In this document: positions 9,454 through 22,244 of the stretch, piece after piece
Numbering within the stretch: position 1 is the stretch's first letter
Layout: every line of letters begins with the position of its first letter
Origin: Gemmataceae bacterium
Lineage (GTDB): Bacteria > Planctomycetota > Planctomycetia > Gemmatales > Gemmataceae
NCBI GenBank assembly: GCA_019694755.1
Contig: JAIBBI010000025.1
Location: 1 to 47,365 of the forward strand
Length of the DNA: 47,365 nt
Direction of reading: 5' to 3'
Notes under the pieces: model-generated
Told to the model about the DNA's origin: nothing
The model's input: the letters and a program-made list of their open reading frames with translations, nothing else
Databases searched by the model: none
Position numbers and translations under genes: made by a program

Positions 9454-10659
9454 ATGTCTGTCCGGGAATTCCCCGTCGACTCCGAACGTGCCATCAGCAC
9501 CCTGATGCGGCTCATCGCCGTCGAGGGTACGACGGGCCACGAGGCGGCCATCATGGCCGAAGTCGCCGCGTGCCTGAAGGAGGCCGGCGTGCCCGCGTCG
9601 GCGATCAAGCACGACGACGCGCAAAAGCGGATTCCCGTGCCCACGCCCGTCGGCAACATGATCGTGCAGCTTCCGGGCACCCGCCCGGGGCCGCGACGCA
9701 TGTTCTCCTCGCACGTCGACACCGTGCCGCTGTGTGCCGGTGCCAAGCCCGTCCGGCAGGCGACGAAGATCGTCCCCGCGGGCAAGACCGCGCTCGGCGG
9801 CGACGACCGTACCGGCGTAGCCGTGCTCGTCTCGCTCGTCGCCACACTGCTCAAAAACAAACTGTCCTATCCGCCCCTGACGCTGCTGTTCACGGTCCGC
9901 GAAGAGAGCGGCCTGCACGGGGCCCGGCACGTCGATGCCGACATGCTCGGCGACCCGAAATTCGGATTCAACTTCGACGGCCGGTCGGCCAGCGAAATCA
10001 CCATCGGCGCGGTCGGCGCGCAGCGATGGGAATGCGAGATCTTCGGCAAGGCGGCCCATGCCGGCGTCGCGCCCGAGCGCGGCATCTCGGCCACGGCCGT
10101 CGCCAGCCTGGCCATCGCCGACATCGTCCGGCACGGCTGGTTCGGCCGGGTGATTCACGGCGAGCACCGCGGCACCAGCAACGTCGGCAGCCTCAGCGGG
10201 CCCGACGGCGGCAGCGCGGGCAACGCCACCAACGTGGTCACCGACTACGTCCTGGTCAAGGGCGAAGCCCGCAGCCACGACACGAAGTTCGCCTCGACCA
10301 TCGCCGCGGCCTACAAGGCGGCCTTCCGCGCCGCGGCCACGCAGGTGTGCGACGCCTCGGGCAAGTCGGCCAAGGTGAAGTTCACCAACCGGCTCGACTA
10401 CGCCCCGTTTCGTCTGAAAGAATCGAGTCCGGCCATTGCCGTCGCGCGACGGGCCGTCGCCGCCATCGGCCGGGAGCCCAAGCTGAAGATCGCCGACGGC
10501 GGCCTCGACGCCAACTGGTTCGTGAAGCACGGCGTGCCCACGCTGACCTTCGGGGCGGGCCAGAACAACATTCACACGATCGAAGAGTTTGTAGACCTGA
10601 GTGAGTTCGTCGCCGGCTGCCGAGTCGCGGTGGCCCTGGCGACCGAGGAGAGTGCATGA
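9454..10659 (+). CDS. M20-family (peptidase T-like) metallopeptidase
   Basis: A 401-aa cytoplasmic protein with a complete set of dinuclear zinc ligands for the M20 family: H87 and D89 (SSHVDTVP), D117/D118 (GGDDRTGVA), E150/E151 (REESGLHG, general base and metal ligand), D175 (FNFDGRS) and H374 (NNIHT). The lid or dimerisation domain lies in about residues 180-300 (FGKAAHAGVAPERGIS). The layout fits peptidase T or related tripeptidases; exact substrate specificity is an inference. The length is normal for the family. The start at 9454 begins MSVREFPVDSERAIS, just before the conserved first helix. It ends 77 nt before the RTX-calpain gene. Confidence 0.88.
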   Translation: MSVREFPVDSERAISTLMRLIAVEGTTGHEAAIMAEVAACLKEAGVPASAIKHDDAQKRIPVPTPVGNMIVQLPGTRPGPRRMFSSHVDTVPLCAGAKPVRQATKIVPAGKTALGGDDRTGVAVLVSLVATLLKNKLSYPPLTLLFTVREESGLHGARHVDADMLGDPKFGFNFDGRSASEITIGAVGAQRWECEIFGKAAHAGVAPERGISATAVASLAIADIVRHGWFGRVIHGEHRGTSNVGSLSGPDGGSAGNATNVVTDYVLVKGEARSHDTKFASTIAAAYKAAFRAAATQVCDASGKSAKVKFTNRLDYAPFRLKESSPAIAVARRAVAAIGREPKLKIADGGLDANWFVKHGVPTLTFGAGQNNIHTIEEFVDLSEFVAGCRVAVALATEESA

Positions 10660-10735
10660 CGGACGGGCCCCCGGGCAATCCCCGGCGGGCAAGACTCGGA
10701 TCAGAACCTCAAACCTCCAGGGAAGGAGTCGGCCG

Positions 10736-12061
10736 ATGAACCCCACCAAACGGCTCAGCTTCGACCGCCTCGAACAACGCGATCTGCCTGCCACCAGCAT
10801 CACCGCCGGCCTCGTCAGCGGTGTCCTCCGGGTCACGGGCACGGCCGGAAATGACTCGATTCTGATCCGACAGACGGCGGCCAGCGCCGTCAGCGTCGTC
10901 ACCAACACCGGCACCAAAGCCTACACGGGCGTCCGCGAAATCTACGCCGACGGCCAGGCCGGCAACGACTACATCTACGTCGATACTACGCCGCTCAAGA
11001 CCAACGAGGTCAGCCTCGCCCTCAAGTCCACGCTCGTCGGCGGGCTGGGCAACGACACCCTCGTTGGCGGTGCGGCCGTCGATCAGCTATACGGCGGCGC
11101 GGGCAACGACTCGCTGTTCGGCAACGGCGGCAACGACCTGATCTACGGCGGCGATGGTAACGACACCATCACCGGCGGCGGCGGCAACGATACCCTCTAC
11201 GGCGAAATCGGCGACGACCGACTCTTCGGCAGCGCGGGCAACGACCAGCTTTACGGCGGCGCAGGCGGCGACTACATCGATGCCGGCGCGGGGGATGATC
11301 TCCTCCAGGGCGGCACCGGCTTCGACACCTTCAAGAACGAATTCAGCGTCGCCGACGTGCTCGACGAATCCGACCCCGAAGACGTCCGGCAGGGCCTATC
11401 CGGCACCTGCGTGATCCTGTCTTCACTCCAGGCCATCAGCGGCACCGGCGTCGATCTCTCGTCCCGCATTACCAAAACCGGGACCAATACTTATTCCGTG
11501 CCCATCTTCCGCCCGGGCACCGGCTGGATCAAGCAGACTGTCTATTTCGACGGCACCTGGACCGACAACGACCCGTCGCCCACGATGGACGGCGCGGCCT
11601 GGACACTTCTCTACCAGCGGGCTTACCTGCAGGAGAAGGGCGTCAACTGGATGGACCCGAATGCAGCCGGCTGGGCCACCAAATACGGCGGTGGCTTCCA
11701 GAACGTCGATGCGGCTTTCATCGCCGTCACCGGCAAGGCGACCTACATCGGCAGCCGGCCCGGCGGACTCATTGACAGCGACCTGACCACGCTCCGGACC
11801 AGCTTCGCGGCCAATAAGCCGATCATCGCGCTGACTCGCCCCGCGGGCTCGGTATACTCGGCCGACATGACCCGGACCGGGGTCATCACCAGCCACGCCT
11901 ACTCGGTGATCGGGTTCGGCACGCGGAACGGCGTGACCACGGTGAAGCTGCGCAACCCGTGGGGCACCGACGGCCCGGTGAAATACGGCATCGACGACGG
12001 CATCATCGAAATTACCTGGACCGACTTCCGCAAGGTGATGCTCGGCTTCTGCGTGTCCTGA
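10736..12061 (+). CDS. RTX calcium-binding repeat protein fused to a calpain-like (C2) cysteine protease
   Basis: A 441-aa protein. Residues 6-18 (RLSFDRLEQRDLPA) form the planctomycete LEPR-XLL-like N-terminal motif that marks many large exported proteins. About residues 95-190 are at least six hemolysin-type nonapeptide repeats (GGxGNDxLxG), which bind calcium. The C-terminal half is calpain-like: Q219 and C225 (RQGLSGTCVILSSL), H387 (TSHAYSVIGFG) and N407 (LRNPWGT) complete the catalytic set. It should therefore be an active, calcium-dependent, probably exported protease. The start at 10736 has GGAAGGAG at 10721-10728. The route of export and the target are unknown. Confidence 0.87.
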   Translation: MNPTKRLSFDRLEQRDLPATSITAGLVSGVLRVTGTAGNDSILIRQTAASAVSVVTNTGTKAYTGVREIYADGQAGNDYIYVDTTPLKTNEVSLALKSTLVGGLGNDTLVGGAAVDQLYGGAGNDSLFGNGGNDLIYGGDGNDTITGGGGNDTLYGEIGDDRLFGSAGNDQLYGGAGGDYIDAGAGDDLLQGGTGFDTFKNEFSVADVLDESDPEDVRQGLSGTCVILSSLQAISGTGVDLSSRITKTGTNTYSVPIFRPGTGWIKQTVYFDGTWTDNDPSPTMDGAAWTLLYQRAYLQEKGVNWMDPNAAGWATKYGGGFQNVDAAFIAVTGKATYIGSRPGGLIDSDLTTLRTSFAANKPIIALTRPAGSVYSADMTRTGVITSHAYSVIGFGTRNGVTTVKLRNPWGTDGPVKYGIDDGIIEITWTDFRKVMLGFCVS

Positions 12062-14603: not shown

Positions 14604-15181
14604 TCGACCCGCGCTGGCGGCCGCCGACGCTCACGCTCCCGCGGCTCACCCTCCGCGACGTTCGCGAATCCGACATCGACGCGATCTACGCCCTGGCCCG
14701 GAACACCAACGTCGCCCGCTACCTGCTCTGGAACGCGCACACGTCGCGCGACGACGCGGAGGCGTATTACCGCGACCTCGTGCTCCCGAAGTATCTCGAG
14801 GGCGTGCCCGAACCGTTTGCCGTGTGCCTGAACGACGGACCGCTCATCGGCGTGGTCGGCGCACGCTGGGCGGCGCGGAGCAACCTGTGCATGGAACTGG
14901 GCTACTGGTTCGGCGAAGAATTCTGGGGGCACGGCTACGCGACGGAGGCGGCCCGGGCCGTGCTGCAATGGCTGTTTGCCACCTACACCCTGGAACGGGT
15001 GCAGGCGCATTGCGTGACGGAGAACCAGGCCAGCGAGAAGGTCCTGCGGAAGATCGGCATGCAGTATGAGGGGACGGCGCGGTCGGCCCTCAATCACCGC
15101 CAGCGATTCTGGGACCTGCACTGGTTCGCCGCACTGCGGACCGACCCGGGCTTTACAGCCGGCGGCCGAACCGAAGGCTGA
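14588..15181 (+). CDS. GNAT-family N-acetyltransferase (RimJ/RimL-like)
   Basis: A 197-aa protein starting at GTG 14588, 16 nt inside the crotonase end. The first strand TLPRLTLRDVRESDIDAIY is typical of the RimJ/RimL subgroup. ELGYWFGEEFWGHGYATEAA holds the acetyl-CoA loop, and VTENQASEKVLRKIGMQYEG is the conserved C-terminal segment. The family acetylates protein N-termini, antibiotics or small amines; the substrate is unknown. It is the last gene of the atu-like cluster, and its 3' end overlaps the convergent glycosidase gene by 29 nt. A larger open frame upstream is out of frame with known GNAT sequence and antisense-like in composition, so it was not used. Confidence 0.82.
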   Translation: MASQLIDPRWRPPTLTLPRLTLRDVRESDIDAIYALARNTNVARYLLWNAHTSRDDAEAYYRDLVLPKYLEGVPEPFAVCLNDGPLIGVVGARWAARSNLCMELGYWFGEEFWGHGYATEAARAVLQWLFATYTLERVQAHCVTENQASEKVLRKIGMQYEGTARSALNHRQRFWDLHWFAALRTDPGFTAGGRTEG

Positions 15182-18100
15182 ACTGCCGGAAGTCGAGCGA
15201 ATCGACCGTGCCATTGCCGTCGTAGTCGAAGGCCGTGAACACCGGCGTGGCCAGGTAGGCGATGCGGAAGGCTGTGTAGTCGGTCGAATCCACATCCCGG
15301 TCGCCGTCGACGTCGCCGTAGAGGCGGTGGAAGGTGTCCACCCGGTCCGCCGCCATGACGTTGCCGGGCAGCGCGGCATCGACGACCTTGCTGGCGACGA
15401 GGCGGAGCGAATAGACCCCGTCCGCGAGGCTGCCGGCCACGATCCCCGTGCCGCCGAAAGTCAGCGTCGCCATCGTCTTGCCGGCCACCGTGCTGGTCAT
15501 CACGCTGACTGTCGGGGCGATGCCACCGACCAGCGTCAGCTCGAACGCCCCGGGCAGCAGCGTCACCACGCGATCGAATGTGACGCTGATCGAGCGGACG
15601 ATCGACCGCTGGACCGCGCCGTTTCCGATGACGACCGAAGTCACCGTCGGCGGCGTCGCCGGCGAAGTCACATCGGTCGAGGAAGGATTGGAGCCGGGCC
15701 GGGCCACGCCCTGTGACGTGCTGGTGGCAAAGGTCGAGCTACCCACGAAGACGGCCGAGAAGATCTGGTTACCGGCCGGGACGGACGACGGGGTGAACGA
15801 CGCCTTGCCCGTGGCATCGAGGTTGGCCGAGCCGAGCATCGTCGAGCCGGCATAAAAATTGACCATTCCGGTCGCGACTCCGCCCGCACAGGCCGCCACA
15901 TTGGCCGTCAGCGAACCGGTGCTGCTCGCGGAGAGCGTGGTCGCGGTGGCCGCGGTCGTGAATTTCAGATTGCTGATCATGAAGCCGGTTCCGACAGCTT
16001 CGATCTTCAGCACGTTTTGCCCCGCTTGGAGGTTGAGCGTCACGGCCGGGGCGTCCATGTAAGTGTCCCAGGTCGGCGTGGTCGGCAGGTTCACCGTCTG
16101 AATCACCTTGCCGTTCAGCGTGATACGGAACGACCGGCCGGCCACGTCCGTGGCGTACCCGAGGCGGAACGTGAATTGCCCGTTGGCCGGAGCACACAGC
16201 ATGTATTCGAGCGGTTGTCCGGGGGCGAAGTAGCGGTTCCCGGTCCGCACCGTCGAACCGACAGTGGCCTGGGCCGAGAACGTGGATGGCAGCGCCTCGC
16301 CGCCCATGTACGACGGTGTCGACCCGGCAAGCACCTGATTGATCGCGCGGATCTTCGGCGTGTTGGTATTGGTCATGTCATTGGTCAGGCCCCAGGTGCC
16401 GTAGGGCGAATCCCAGTTGGTCGCACCGGCCGTGAACCAGTTGAAGAGCCCGCCGCCGTTTGAGAACCACTGATTGAGGTAGTCGACGACGATCTGCTGC
16501 ATCCGCGGGTCGAGCTGCGATGCCTTCTTGGCCTGGATGTTGTTCGAGCCGAAGGTGTCCGGCCCGCCCTCGTAGGCGACCATCTTGAGGCCGTTGCCCT
16601 GCGCCAGCGCGGCCAGTTGCGAGTAGGCCATCGCCTCGGGCGCACTCTGCATCGCCGCCTGGAGCCCGGCGATGACCTGATCCACCGTCAGATTCGGATT
16701 CGTGTCGACGCTGCCGAGCGAAAAGTAGGGCGCGCCGGCAAGTGCGTACACGTACCGGCTCACGTCGCCGTAGCGGTCGTTGATGTACTTCACCGCTTGG
16801 CGGAACGTCTCGGGATTGGCCGACTGCGCCGCCAGCACGGGCCGGACGCGCGTGTTCATCGCGGCATCGCCCCAGACGGCGCGGAACCCGTCGCTGATCC
16901 GGCGGATCTGCTCGCCGACCCGCCGCCAGGCCCAGAAGCCGGCGTTGGTGTCGCCGTCGTAGTTGTACGCGCCGGTGCCGGCATTCACTTCCGCGATGGC
17001 GGCGTTGTAGTTCGTGCCGCACTGCTGGAAGCCCCAGTTCCACACCTCGTTCGACCACTCGACGTAAACGGCCCGGTCGGGGTTGAGGTTGTTCTTGAGG
17101 TACGTGGCCAGGTTGGTCACGTAATCGTTGGTGGCGTTGGTCGGGACGTTGATCCAGATGTCCTTACCGAGCTGATTGCCGAGCTGGACGATGTACTCCC
17201 ACGCCACGCCATGATAAGTCTGGCGGGCGTAGTTCATCGGCGTGCGCTCCGACCAGTTGGCGACGGTCGAGTGATTCGTCTCCAACCAATCCATGAACCG
17301 CAGGGTGGTGAACCCTTTGAGCTGATTCGTGAACTCGGTGGTGAAGGTCGGCGCGGTGGCCGGGTTGTAGCCCGGGCGGATCATGCGAACGTTCATGACG
17401 CCGGAGCCGACCGGACTGGCCGCCGTCCGCTTCGTGTTGCGGAAGACGATGCCGAGATACCATTCGGAGGAGGCGGAGGCGCTCAGGGTCACGTCGGCCG
17501 TGGTGGTGTTGGTGGCCGAGTCGTAGACGATGTTCGACACGGTGGCCGGGCTGACCCACTTGTCGATGGTCGCCTGCCCGGTGAACGAGAGCTTGTAGGT
17601 CCCGTTGTAGATGTGGGCCTGATTGGTCAGCCCCGACTGGAAGATGATCATGCTGTCGGCCGTTGGCCAACCGTTGGCGTCGACGGCGACGGGCTGGAAG
17701 CTGTCGGCCGTCATGAACTCGCGGGCCTGCTTCGTCATGTCGACGAACGAATTCGAGTAGGCCCAGTCGATGACCTCTTCGAGATTCGCGCCGAGCGGCG
17801 GCGGGTCGGCGATGGTCAGGTTCTCAAAGACGCCGGAGGCCAGCGAGTTGGAGCCGAGCGACGTGACGGCCGCCCCGACGGTCAGCGTGTTGCCCGCGGC
17901 AAATGCGCCCGTGCCGACCAGCGTCCACGAACCGTCCTGCCCGTTCGCGCTGACGTACGCGCTGAAGAGCGGGCCGTTGCGGACCAGCTTGGCGAACTGA
18001 GCCGACGGGCCGGCATAGGTCGCCGTGCTGACGAGCCCGTCCGGAGTCGATCGGAGCGAAAAACTCCAGGTGCCGTTCGTCGAGCGCGTTACCGCCGCGA

Positions 18101-18446
18101 ATGCGCTGTTAGCGGCGGTCCCGTTGCGGAACATCAGGCCGCCCGAGGCGATGCCGTCTGCATCGGTCACGGACGTGACCTTCGCGGTGATCGAGCCGTC
18201 GCCGGTGATTTCCTTGTAACGGAAGTGGAACTGGTCGGAGGTGCCGGTCAGACCGTTGCCGGCCCCCTGCACGGTGAGCGTGCCCGTCGTCGAGGTGGTG
18301 GCAGTACCTACGGTCGCGGGCTGACCGACGCCGGCATCGCCCCACCAGGTGGCGACGGCGGGGACTTCGCGGGCTTCCAGCTTTTCGAGTTGACGAAGAA
18401 GCGTGCCGATCTTGCGGATCTTGAGTGCGAACGTGCTGTCGGACAT
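15153..18446 (-). CDS. Large exported glycoside hydrolase-like protein with CBM, Ig-like and dockerin domains
   Basis: A 1097-aa protein. Residues 15-28 (LEKLEAREVPAVA) are a LEPR-XLL-like export motif. Domains in order: concanavalin-like beta-sandwich (about 30-205); a clan-A-like glycoside hydrolase region (about 215-740) with candidate acid/base E467 (YVEWSNEVWNWG) and nucleophile E626 (MVAYEGGPDTFG); a carbohydrate-binding-like sandwich (about 745-880); one or two Ig-like domains (about 885-1035); and a C-terminal type I dockerin-like pair of calcium loops (DVDGDRDVDSTDY, DYDGNGTVDSLDF). The role should be polysaccharide attack outside the cytoplasm; the substrate is not evident. The start at 18446 has GAGGA about 6-7 nt upstream. 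The catalytic assignments are inference. Confidence 0.8.
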   Translation of the reverse strand: MSDSTFALKIRKIGTLLRQLEKLEAREVPAVATWWGDAGVGQPATVGTATTSTTGTLTVQGAGNGLTGTSDQFHFRYKEITGDGSITAKVTSVTDADGIASGGLMFRNGTAANSAFAAVTRSTNGTWSFSLRSTPDGLVSTATYAGPSAQFAKLVRNGPLFSAYVSANGQDGSWTLVGTGAFAAGNTLTVGAAVTSLGSNSLASGVFENLTIADPPPLGANLEEVIDWAYSNSFVDMTKQAREFMTADSFQPVAVDANGWPTADSMIIFQSGLTNQAHIYNGTYKLSFTGQATIDKWVSPATVSNIVYDSATNTTTADVTLSASASSEWYLGIVFRNTKRTAASPVGSGVMNVRMIRPGYNPATAPTFTTEFTNQLKGFTTLRFMDWLETNHSTVANWSERTPMNYARQTYHGVAWEYIVQLGNQLGKDIWINVPTNATNDYVTNLATYLKNNLNPDRAVYVEWSNEVWNWGFQQCGTNYNAAIAEVNAGTGAYNYDGDTNAGFWAWRRVGEQIRRISDGFRAVWGDAAMNTRVRPVLAAQSANPETFRQAVKYINDRYGDVSRYVYALAGAPYFSLGSVDTNPNLTVDQVIAGLQAAMQSAPEAMAYSQLAALAQGNGLKMVAYEGGPDTFGSNNIQAKKASQLDPRMQQIVVDYLNQWFSNGGGLFNWFTAGATNWDSPYGTWGLTNDMTNTNTPKIRAINQVLAGSTPSYMGGEALPSTFSAQATVGSTVRTGNRYFAPGQPLEYMLCAPANGQFTFRLGYATDVAGRSFRITLNGKVIQTVNLPTTPTWDTYMDAPAVTLNLQAGQNVLKIEAVGTGFMISNLKFTTAATATTLSASSTGSLTANVAACAGGVATGMVNFYAGSTMLGSANLDATGKASFTPSSVPAGNQIFSAVFVGSSTFATSTSQGVARPGSNPSSTDVTSPATPPTVTSVVIGNGAVQRSIVRSISVTFDRVVTLLPGAFELTLVGGIAPTVSVMTSTVAGKTMATLTFGGTGIVAGSLADGVYSLRLVASKVVDAALPGNVMAADRVDTFHRLYGDVDGDRDVDSTDYTAFRIAYLATPVFTAFDYDGNGTVDSLDFRQFSLRFGRRL

Positions 18447-18629
18447 GACCAGTCCTCGCGCGCAGCGGGTCGAAGCCTGCTGCGCAAGCCGGAGGCGTCG
18501 GTCGTGCATCACTGCGCGACTTGGCGGACAGGACCGCGCGACGCCGGGGGTGCGTCTTTTGACGGGAGGGTTTTCCGACAGGGTGGTCGGGCGGCGAGGG
18601 GGTCGCATTCGCCCTGTCGAATCGACTGT

Positions 18630-18658
18630 ACTCTAGGTTACTATTTTGCGGGCGTCAA
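18630..18658 (-). promoter_or_regulatory. Sigma70-type promoter for the large glycosidase gene
   Basis: On the minus strand TTGACG (18658-18653) and TAGAGT (18635-18630) are 17 nt apart, giving a leader of about 180 nt to the ATG at 18446. Confidence 0.5.
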
Positions 18659-18722
18659 ACGGGCGCGTCCCGGAAGCGACGGCGGGCGCGGGAGATCCCG
18701 TCGCCCGGCCCGAAATCACTCT

Positions 18723-21700
18723 CTATTTGGCGGACTTCGCCCGCTGAAGCTGGCGCTGGGCCGCCTGGTCGCCCGGCGCGATCTTCAGGGCGGCTTCGTA
18801 CGCCGCGACCGCCTCCGCCGACTTCCGGGCGAGCAACGCCTTGCCGCCCAGGTCCATCTGACGGGCGTATTCGGCCCGGGTCGTTGCGGCGGGGTCGCCG
18901 GGAAGAGCCTTCAGCGCTTCGAGATAAGCCGATCGGGCGTCGGCATACTTGCCCTGCCGCTCGGCCGTCGCCCCGTCGCCCATCTTCTTCGTGTACTCGA
19001 CCGGGGGGCCCTTCTTCGCCTGCTCCTTCGGCAGCGGCGGCGGCGACTTCGGTTGCTCCAACTTGGGCTGCTCCTTCGGCAGCGGCGGCGACTTCGGTTG
19101 CTCCGCCTTCGGCTGCTCCTTCGGCAGTGGCGGTGGCGTCACCACTTTGGGCTGCTCCTTGGGCAGCGGCGGCGGTGTCACCACTTTGGGCTGTTCCTTC
19201 GGCAGCGGCGGCGGCGTCTCCGCTTTGGGCTGCTCCTTCGGCAGCGGGGGAGGAGTCACGACCTTGGGCTGTTCCTTCGGCATTGCCGGCGGTTGCTGCT
19301 GCTTGGCCATCGCGGCGGCAGCGGCGGCGGCAGCAGCGTCCGCCTTCAATTTCGCTTCCGCGTCGGCGCGGGCCTGATCCGCCGCCTTCTGTTTGGCCGA
19401 CTCGCTCAGCGACTTGCGGGCGGCCACCCACTGCCCGATCTGCTGGTCGACATCCGGATTCGGCCGAATCCGTCGGGCCTGATTAGCCAGGTCGATCGCC
19501 TCGTCGAAGCGGTTGTTCCCCGCCAACTTCTTCGCGTTGTCCATGAGTCGTGCAAACTCACGCTGGTCCCGCTCTTCGTCGCGTGCTTTGCGGGCGCGCT
19601 CCTCTTCGTCCCGGCGCCGGCGGTCGCGCTCGGTCTGCTCGCGCAACCGAGCGATCTCCTCGTCGCGCTGCTTTCGCAGGGCGGCTTCGCGGGCGGCCGA
19701 CTCCTCGGCCGCCCGCAACCGGGCCGATTCCGCCATCCGGGCTCGGACCGCATCGTGTTCGCGGATCAGGTCTGCCGACTTGTCGATGGCGAGCGCGGCC
19801 GTGAATAGCTCGGCCGACTGCTGCCACTGCTGCTTGTCGCGGGCCGCCCGCGCCTGCACGACGAGTCGTTCGTACGCGGCTCGTTGTTGACGCTGCCGGT
19901 CCGCTTCGGCCACCGCGGCCGCGGCCCGCTCGGCCTGCGCACGCGCGGCCGCCGACTCGCGCATCAACAGCTCCTGCTGTTCGCGCTGGCGGACCATCGC
20001 CAACCGTGCGGCTTCCTGATCCGACCGCCGGCGGTCGGCAATCTCCGCCATCCGCGCCTGACGCTCGGCCTGGAGAAGCAGTGATTGCACCTGCACGTCG
20101 TCGGGCCGGGCCTTCAGGCACTGCTGATAAATACCGATTGCCTGGGGGAACTGGCCCTGCGACAAATGCCCTTCCGCCTGGCCGATCAGAACCTGGAACG
20201 AGTCGGCCTGCTGGAGGCGGGCGACGCGGATGTTGGGGTCGGTCAGCATCCACCGGGCGATCTCGGGCAGGCGCAGCTTCAGCTCGACGGGATTGCGGGC
20301 GACGATCGTGGCCATGTCGATGCGTGCGCCGATCGCCGCATCCAGCAGATGTGCGGTCACTTCGAGTCCTCGCCGCGTCTGACGGATAGTGCCGACGAGA
20401 AAGTACCGGGCGTCGAGCGCCTGGCCGAGGTAGGCCCGGGCGGCCGGGTCGATAATCACATCGCGTAGCGTCAGCCCCAGCCGGCCCATGTACCACGAGA
20501 CGGTCCCGCGATCGAGCACGTCGTAGGGCGGCTGGTAATACGGTGCGAGCATCTGCGCCGTCCAGGTGCCCAGCCCCGGCTGGACGGTCCCGTCACCCGG
20601 CGAGACGAAGTCGAGCACGACAATCCGCTGGCGCGGCGGCGGGGGCGGCGGCATCGAGGGCCGGCATCGGTCGAGCCGGACCTGGATGTCGGTCTGGCCC
20701 GGGTTCAGATTCAGGGCCAACTGATATTGAGCATGGGCATCCCGCAGCAGCCCCCGGCGGAACAGGTTGTCGCCGAGTTCCAGCGCGAGGTGCGTCACGC
20801 GGAGGCGTGCTTTGTGGTCTTTCTCCAGCACCAGCGACATGCCGAGCCCGCCCGGCGGAGTAACGGGCGGCAGCCGACCGAAATCATCGACCAGTACGCC
20901 GCCCAGCGTCGGCGGGCGCAGGGTAACGGGCACGATGGCCGCGGGCGGCGGGCCGCCCGGCGGAGGTGGCGGGGGCAATGGCCCCTGCTCGATCACGTTT
21001 ACCGGCGGCTGCTGGGTCAGTGTCTGCTCGTACTGCCGCAATTCCGCGTCGCTCATCTGCAGCATCAGCGCGAGGTTCGGCAGCATCGCCATCATCGATC
21101 GCGGGTCGGCCGCGGCCACCCGTGCGGTCTGCACGACCAGCCCTGATTGGGCTTCGACCATCCGGGCCTGTACGACGATCCCTCCGAAGCTCGGCGTCAC
21201 GCTCCCGAGGACGATGTAGCGGACGTTGGCGAGCCGGGCGAGTTCGCGTCGCGACCCGTCATTGGACCACACGTCGCCCGCCTCCAGGCGTAGCTCGTTC
21301 ACGACCTTGTCGACCTGCTGACGTTCGACGATGTCGAACCGGCCGCGGAACTTCGGCATCAGCTCCTCGGCAACGACCCGGCCGGGGTTCGGGATACCGA
21401 TATCGCCCCGGACTTCGAAGTCGGCGATGGCTACACGGTCACGGCGGTTCTGCACCGCTAATGCGCAGGCGTCCCAATCGGCTCGATTCTCCGGCGTGTC
21501 CCAGAGTGCCCCGGCCTGGCGGTAAAGATCCATTGCCGCGTCGACCCGCGCAGGGTCGCGCCGCAACTCGAACGCCTGCCTGCGGAGGTCGTCGTACTTC
21601 GCGAGCGTCTGTCGGAGTTGATCCGCCTGCTGCTGCACCGCGGGGTCTGGACGGGCGGCCAGCGACTGGTCGTAGGCGATCACGGCCGCCCGCAGGTTGC

Positions 21701-22244
21701 GGTTGGTGGCCGCGGCTTCGGCCTCCTTGCGGAACTGGTCGGCGCGGGCGGCATCCGGCCCGCCGGCGAGGAGTGCGTCGGCCTGGCGCTTGAGCGCGGC
21801 AAACGTGTCGCCCTCGGCCCCGCCGCCGAACTGGCCCAGCGCGAGACCGGCGAGTCGGGCCGCCTCGTCGGCCCGGCCCTGCTTGAGTACGACGCGGATG
21901 TCGTCGGCCGCCCGACCGGCCAGATTCTGCTGCTCGATCCGCTGCTTCAGCCGGTCGATTTCGCCGCGGACCAGATCGGTGTCTTTCGCCGTCCGCGCCT
22001 TCTCCAGAGCCGCGAGCGCGGGGGCCAATTGGCCTTCCGAAAGTCGGGCCATCGCCTCGCCGAGGGCGGCATCGTATTGTGCTTCCGCACTCAGGGGAAC
22101 GGGCGGCAACGCGGGCACGGCCACGTCAGACGTCGGTGTCGCGGTCGCGCCGGTCGGCGCGGGCACGGCCGGCGGTGAGGCAGGACGGCCGCATCCCGCC
22201 ACGGCCATCCCGATAAATGCAGTCAGCAGAATCCTACGCGACAT
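18723..22244 (-). CDS. Large lipoprotein with two CsgG-like domains, coiled coil, Pro-Lys repeats and TPRs
   Basis: A 1173-aa lipoprotein (MSRRILLTAFIGMAVAGC, lipobox VAGC). After a helical/TPR-like N-terminal part, a CsgG-like domain occupies about residues 265-420 (RVAIADFEVRGDIGIP, FDIVERQQVDKVVNEL, RYIVLGSVTPSFGG). A second, more divergent copy spans about 533-680 (RIVVLDFVSPGDGTVQ, YDVLDRGTVSWYMG, YFLVGTIRQTRRG). Then come a TPR, a long charged coiled coil (about 735-960), seven PLPKEQPK-type repeats (about 985-1078) and C-terminal TPRs. CsgG itself is the outer-membrane curli pore; here a surface scaffold or regulator is an equally fair guess. The start at 22244 has GGAG 8 nt upstream. 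Confidence 0.78.
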   Translation of the reverse strand: MSRRILLTAFIGMAVAGCGRPASPPAVPAPTGATATPTSDVAVPALPPVPLSAEAQYDAALGEAMARLSEGQLAPALAALEKARTAKDTDLVRGEIDRLKQRIEQQNLAGRAADDIRVVLKQGRADEAARLAGLALGQFGGGAEGDTFAALKRQADALLAGGPDAARADQFRKEAEAAATNRNLRAAVIAYDQSLAARPDPAVQQQADQLRQTLAKYDDLRRQAFELRRDPARVDAAMDLYRQAGALWDTPENRADWDACALAVQNRRDRVAIADFEVRGDIGIPNPGRVVAEELMPKFRGRFDIVERQQVDKVVNELRLEAGDVWSNDGSRRELARLANVRYIVLGSVTPSFGGIVVQARMVEAQSGLVVQTARVAAADPRSMMAMLPNLALMLQMSDAELRQYEQTLTQQPPVNVIEQGPLPPPPPPGGPPPAAIVPVTLRPPTLGGVLVDDFGRLPPVTPPGGLGMSLVLEKDHKARLRVTHLALELGDNLFRRGLLRDAHAQYQLALNLNPGQTDIQVRLDRCRPSMPPPPPPRQRIVVLDFVSPGDGTVQPGLGTWTAQMLAPYYQPPYDVLDRGTVSWYMGRLGLTLRDVIIDPAARAYLGQALDARYFLVGTIRQTRRGLEVTAHLLDAAIGARIDMATIVARNPVELKLRLPEIARWMLTDPNIRVARLQQADSFQVLIGQAEGHLSQGQFPQAIGIYQQCLKARPDDVQVQSLLLQAERQARMAEIADRRRSDQEAARLAMVRQREQQELLMRESAAARAQAERAAAAVAEADRQRQQRAAYERLVVQARAARDKQQWQQSAELFTAALAIDKSADLIREHDAVRARMAESARLRAAEESAAREAALRKQRDEEIARLREQTERDRRRRDEEERARKARDEERDQREFARLMDNAKKLAGNNRFDEAIDLANQARRIRPNPDVDQQIGQWVAARKSLSESAKQKAADQARADAEAKLKADAAAAAAAAAMAKQQQPPAMPKEQPKVVTPPPLPKEQPKAETPPPLPKEQPKVVTPPPLPKEQPKVVTPPPLPKEQPKAEQPKSPPLPKEQPKLEQPKSPPPLPKEQAKKGPPVEYTKKMGDGATAERQGKYADARSAYLEALKALPGDPAATTRAEYARQMDLGGKALLARKSAEAVAAYEAALKIAPGDQAAQRQLQRAKSAK
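19009..19290 (-). repeat. In-gene tandem repeat coding PLPKEQPK units
   Basis: Seven units of 13-16 codons, each with the core PLPKEQPK followed by VVTPP, AETPP, AEQPKSP or LEQPKSPP. They code for a stiff, positively charged proline-rich linker like a periplasm-spanning or wall-binding segment. Copy number may vary between strains. Confidence 0.85.

Follow-up and report, generated by a model that had tools for sequence, protein, structure and literature searches.

A large Gemmatales lipoprotein with two homologous TolB-N/LpoB/CsgG-core-like domains, a candidate envelope scaffold

The gene, its neighbours and the parts of its product

The window (the whole stretch of 47,365 nt of Gemmataceae DNA analysed here) carries at positions 18723–22244 a gene for a lipoprotein of 1173 aa (Table 1). 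The initial annotation had placed it correctly and given its proper length; it is read from the minus strand, which is open from the ATG to a single terminal stop, whilst the plus strand of the same interval contains several stops. As the window is GC-rich and spurious long ORFs are common in it (for example, a 1063-aa open frame at 16617–19808 on the plus strand, antisense to two real genes), the length of a reading frame is poor evidence here. We consider the gene real because homologues are conserved in other genera: in a set of 31 genomes, long-tract homologues were found in nine others, at 35–45 % identity and with E-values down to 1.6e-188. The interval thus encodes a real protein, which is present as a single copy in its own genome. 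A scan for terminators and promoters at the gene ends gave nothing notable.

Table 1. Coordinates (window positions) of the gene and of the parts of its product
Feature	Position	Strand	Basis
Whole gene, 1173-aa lipoprotein	18723..22244	-	ATG 22244-22242, stop 18725-18723; homologues
Lipoprotein signal peptide (predicted), residues 1-18, lipobox VAG-C18	22191..22244	-	Lipobox in all N-terminally complete homologues
N-terminal helical/TPR-like region, residues 53-267	21444..22088	-	AlphaFold model helices
Domain 1 (TolB-N/LpoB/FlgO/CsgG-core-like), residues 270-396	21057..21437	-	Pfam, AlphaFold model, structure comparison, Foldseek
Pro-rich linker, residues 410-475	20820..21017	-	Composition; low pLDDT in core model
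Helical hairpin (TPR-like), residues 477-530	20655..20816	-	AlphaFold model
Domain 2, predicted fold as domain 1, residues 540-667	20244..20627	-	hhalign, AlphaFold model, structure search
TPR, residues 670-720	20085..20237	-	Pfam TPR_1 693-716, TPR_14 687-725
Charged coiled-coil helices with embedded TPR-like hairpins, residues 721-984	19293..20084	-	Composition; long-helix start in AlphaFold model
Pro-Lys repeats (six PPLPKEQPK-type units), residues 985-1084	18993..19292	-	Composition
C-terminal TPRs, residues 1085-1170	18735..18992	-	Pfam TPR_2 1091-1116

Operon context was considered as a functional clue and set aside, as the adjoining genes are not conserved beside homologues. Homologues have next to them neither the upstream histidine kinase/NtrC pair nor the downstream secreted protein, and the only two neighbours to recur, in three loci, are a putative ROK-type gene and a putative trpF-type gene, both named from sequence. 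PADLOC returned no match to a defence system. The gene directly downstream, on the same strand (15153–18608), encodes 1151 aa; its product combines Big_3_5, CBM6 and dockerin type I domains and bears, close to the N terminus, the motif LEKLEAREVPA. A further secreted-looking protein (10601–12061, plus strand) has RTX calcium-binding repeats, a calpain-type (C2) cysteine protease domain and the motif LEQRDLPA near its N terminus.

The initial description of the product as a lipoprotein with TPRs, a coiled coil and Pro-Lys repeats was borne out: all N-terminally complete homologues checked share the lipobox, Pfam TPR_2 matches with an E-value of 3e-13, charged residues make up as much as 60 % of the coiled-coil region by composition, and the P-L-P-K-E-Q unit occurs six times. 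Having both a lipobox and Pfam TPR matches over the cut-off, the protein can be classed as a TPR lipoprotein. Full-length homologues that we read are all longer (1406–1971 aa). Across them a core of TPR, domain 1, linker, TPR, domain 2, TPR and coiled coil is kept and the tail varies, their extra length being mainly a TPR-containing tail, with Pro-rich sequence in one (L029). Very similar Pro-Lys repeats were seen in a 659-aa aromatic-rich protein of the same genome (L002:1261-3237, minus strand), so this type of linker is common to more than one of its proteins.

Fold, ancestry and spread of the two domains

The initial annotation had also recognized two CsgG-like domains. That there are two homologous domains stands, whilst the label proved loose, as Pfam CsgG matches domain 1 only and in part (26 bits against a cut-off of 20.8, over profile positions 52–99 of 210). 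Domain 1 also matches Pfam FlgO, with 31.8 bits against a gathering score of 22.6, and among ten homologues the CsgG, FlgO, LpoB, TolB_N and GNA1162-like models each find matches to this domain, LpoB doing so in four of the ten. Domain 2 alone does not reach the Pfam cut-offs (its FlgO score is 15.5 bits, with 22.6 required), and its profile found no match in the PDB. When the two domains were compared by profile, however, hhalign gave 99.5 %, an E-value of 3e-23 and 26 % identity, and on this comparison domain 2 is clearly homologous to domain 1.

Structural models point to one shared fold. The AlphaFold model of domain 1 (pLDDT 86, pTM 0.79) gave Z-scores of 12.7–13.3 with TolB-N, 12.8 with GNA1162, 12.1 with FlgT, 11.7 with PelC and 11.3 with LpoB; with CsgG the scores were 10.0 over 114 residues (4q79, crystal form) and 8.2 (4uv3, pore). 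The best Foldseek match was LpoB, with an E-value of 3e-8. The core model covers residues 45–760 at a pLDDT of 80 and a pTM of 0.35, which leaves the relative placement of the domains undefined. Strands and helices follow one another in an order that appears twice in the models, giving domain 2 the predicted fold of domain 1, and a search with the whole core returned rows covering domain 2 that match TolB, FlgT and CsgG. Both domains are accordingly modelled with the fold of TolB-N, GNA1162, PelC, LpoB, FlgT and the CsgG core; as TolB-N, LpoB, PelC and FlgT match equally well or better, 'CsgG-like' is too narrow a name. Literature searches returned no paper combining FlgO, LpoB and CsgG, none combining GNA1162, TolB and CsgG, and for Gemmata with CsgG an unrelated match only.

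In the CsgG nonamer, each subunit contributes two transmembrane beta-hairpins, i.e. four strands, to a 36-stranded barrel (PMC4389571). Against 137 residues of the domain 1 model, the match in 4uv3 spans 205, leaving about 68 CsgG residues without a counterpart. At the two places that we take to be those of hairpin insertion, set from knowledge of CsgG and from strand order, the loops measure 8–9 and 21 residues in all domain 1 copies of the family, and 2–14 and 17 residues in all domain 2 copies. The strands in the AlphaFold models are about 10 residues long with a two-residue turn, and no long strands are seen. Sequence and model thus agree in predicting that both domains lack the CsgG transmembrane hairpins.

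Of 102 Gemmatales genomes, 23 carry the two-domain core, among them that of the cultured Zavarzinella formosa (locus L037); some copies are truncated at contig ends. Sampling 248 genomes from the class and 294 from the phylum gave, outside the order, matches to one domain or a repeat only; judged by sequence and within the samples searched, the two-domain lipoprotein is an order-specific architecture assembled from known parts. The trees resolve domain 1 and domain 2 each as a single group with full support, and the two jointly as a starred clade. As they are separate groups within one clade, the duplication predates the spread of the protein in the order, and both domains derive from one ancient duplication. 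Further proteins of planctomycetes also carry tandem TolB-N/FlgO-like domains, in different architectures (L050:1850-3193, L058:1-4215, L059:114-4796 and L061:2867-7000), so that a double copy as such is not unique.

The same clade takes in two single-domain relatives from other families, namely a 181-aa protein and a kinase in which the domain is flanked by TPRs. The latter (L065:1-3621, minus strand, genome G487) appears to be the closest non-Gemmatales single-domain relative with flanking TPRs. Read from sequence, it consists of a kinase, TPR, the domain 1 relative, TPR and a formylglycine-generating-enzyme-like domain, with the TPR-domain-TPR segment lying after an apparent transmembrane segment, so the domain 1 module seems to occur in receptor-like proteins as well. 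It resembles our protein in that its domain belongs to the same clade, has TPRs on both sides and is followed by MSDAEK in both proteins; it differs in having one copy and in being a receptor-like kinase, not a lipoprotein.

An envelope scaffold and its closest rivals

The best explanation, to which we give about an even chance, is that the gene specifies a periplasmic scaffold (adaptor) lipoprotein that is anchored in the envelope of the Gemmatales and has two docking modules. The N-terminal cysteine is predicted to be lipidated, and the anchor would probably lie in the outer membrane; to our knowledge, the +2 residue is no confident guide to sorting between inner and outer membrane in planctomycetes. 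TolB-N and LpoB are protein-docking domains. The two domains of this type, products of an internal duplication, sit between TPR and coiled-coil segments and may bind partner proteins, whilst the long variable tail, made up of the coiled coil, a flexible Pro-Lys linker and the C-terminal TPRs, could bridge the periplasm to a second partner. What sequences and models themselves provide is the lipobox, two homologous domains (their fold by prediction), the apparent lack of hairpins, the TPRs, the variable tail and the conservation. Speaking for a scaffold are the conserved lipobox, the conserved core with its variable tail, the docking-domain fold and the presence of the module in a receptor-like kinase; against it are the unconserved adjoining genes and the low pTM of the core model. 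Of the two proposals in the initial annotation, a new type of pore or an envelope-spanning scaffold, the first is discarded below and the second survives as the best explanation, given the lipid anchor and the long TPR, coiled-coil and Pro-rich parts.

The best structural match to domain 1 (Z of about 13), the TolB N-terminal domain (PF04052), is itself a periplasmic docking domain. TolB, however, combines one copy with a beta-propeller, whereas the protein described here has two copies, TPRs and a coiled coil; no beta-propeller was found in its Pfam matches or in model residues 45–760, and residues 761–1173 consist of charged helical, Pro-rich and TPR sequence. The Gemmatales envelope is unusual and poorly understood, and a conserved, order-specific large scaffold lipoprotein would offer a concrete handle on its organization.

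The main rival to a scaffold, and a rather unlikely one, is a soluble ring or collar in the style of PelC or FlgT/FlgO, which would encircle some other channel or machine on the periplasmic side of the membrane and have no barrel of its own; two domains could stack two rings. PelC and FlgT, which form rings, have the same fold, and in the case of PelC a ring of 12 lipoproteins holds the TPR part (stalk) of PelB (PMC12141448). Entries for FlgO-domain proteins contain 58 and 174 identical chains. On the other hand, the fold is equally that of TolB and LpoB, which are not ring proteins, and no conserved candidate for a barrel partner is encoded beside the gene. Like our protein, PelC and GNA1162 are lipoproteins with the fold of domains 1 and 2, but each is a single small domain, and PelC works as a 12-mer with PelB; beside the studied gene no comparable partner was found.

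We also doubt that the protein is an envelope sensor or regulator whose domains recognize a ligand or a protein of the envelope and relay a signal, as relatives fused to Ser/Thr kinases may do; this we judge improbable. Related domains are fused to kinases, as read from sequence, in five loci (L051, L053, L056, L057 and L065), one of which is the closest relative with flanking TPRs discussed above. The studied protein, though, lacks by Pfam a kinase or any other output domain, and the adjoining histidine kinase/NtrC pair is not kept beside homologues. More speculative still, and quite improbable, is an elaborate form of the collar, in which two stacked soluble rings at the Gemmatales outer membrane would be joined to TPR/coiled-coil tails forming a periplasm-spanning cage around a channel. 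If true, such a double collar with its cage would be a new kind of envelope-spanning assembly.

Gene content and the pore, flagellar and LpoB-like readings

A CsgG-type secretion pore with doubled domains is very improbable. In its favour are the score for domain 1 above the Pfam CsgG cut-off (PF03783, a partial match), the core fold common to domain 1 and CsgG, and the fact that both are lipoproteins. CsgG is, however, about a quarter of the size of the 1173-aa protein, which has short loops family-wide at both presumed hairpin places, no long strands in its models and the shortened match to 4uv3 described above. Nor are curli genes present: curlin (PF07012) was found in none of the 102 Gemmatales genomes, with a positive E. 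coli control. A CsgG-type pore is not supported because both the hairpins and a curlin gene are lacking, and the new pore of the initial annotation was dropped on these grounds. Domains folding, by sequence and model, in a form devoid of hairpins are one of the two outcomes which that annotation had itself named as refuting. The large two-domain lipoprotein is most likely a scaffold, not a new channel, and 'CsgG' annotations in planctomycetes can denote a general docking module instead of curli pores.

That the protein is a component of the flagellar outer-membrane ring, like FlgO or FlgT, is hardly credible in spite of the Pfam FlgO match above the gathering score and the FlgT structural match (Z of 12.1). 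No flagellar genes adjoin the 1173-aa gene. The L-ring gene flgH, the model for which, like the others used here, detected its target in control genomes, occurs in 34 of 102 Gemmatales genomes and is absent from the studied one, single-genome absences being weaker than counts over the 102, as some of the assemblies are incomplete. It shows no association with the core, being found in 5 of the 23 genomes that carry it and in 29 of the 79 that do not (Fisher p 0.22), and a flagellar role is contradicted on both counts.

An LpoB-like activator of a class A penicillin-binding protein (PBP) is likewise extremely unlikely. LpoB (PF13036) is a lipoprotein of the same fold, as the Z-score, Foldseek and Pfam results above attest; it differs from the studied protein, which has two copies and huge helical parts. 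Moreover, the glycosyltransferase domain of class A PBPs (PF00912) was detected in one of the 102 Gemmatales genomes and is absent from the studied genome and from all core-bearing genomes, and PBP_dimer (PF03717) was found in none of the 102; the two models found their targets in 10 of 14 control genomes. Barring a non-homologous synthase, gene content therefore contradicts this role. By these searches, class A PBPs and the class B PBP dimer domain appear to be missing from the Gemmatales. The scarcity of PF00912 agrees with a published survey, in which planctomycetes were assigned to a peptidoglycan-intermediate group, characterized by having no class A PBPs (PMC5814848).
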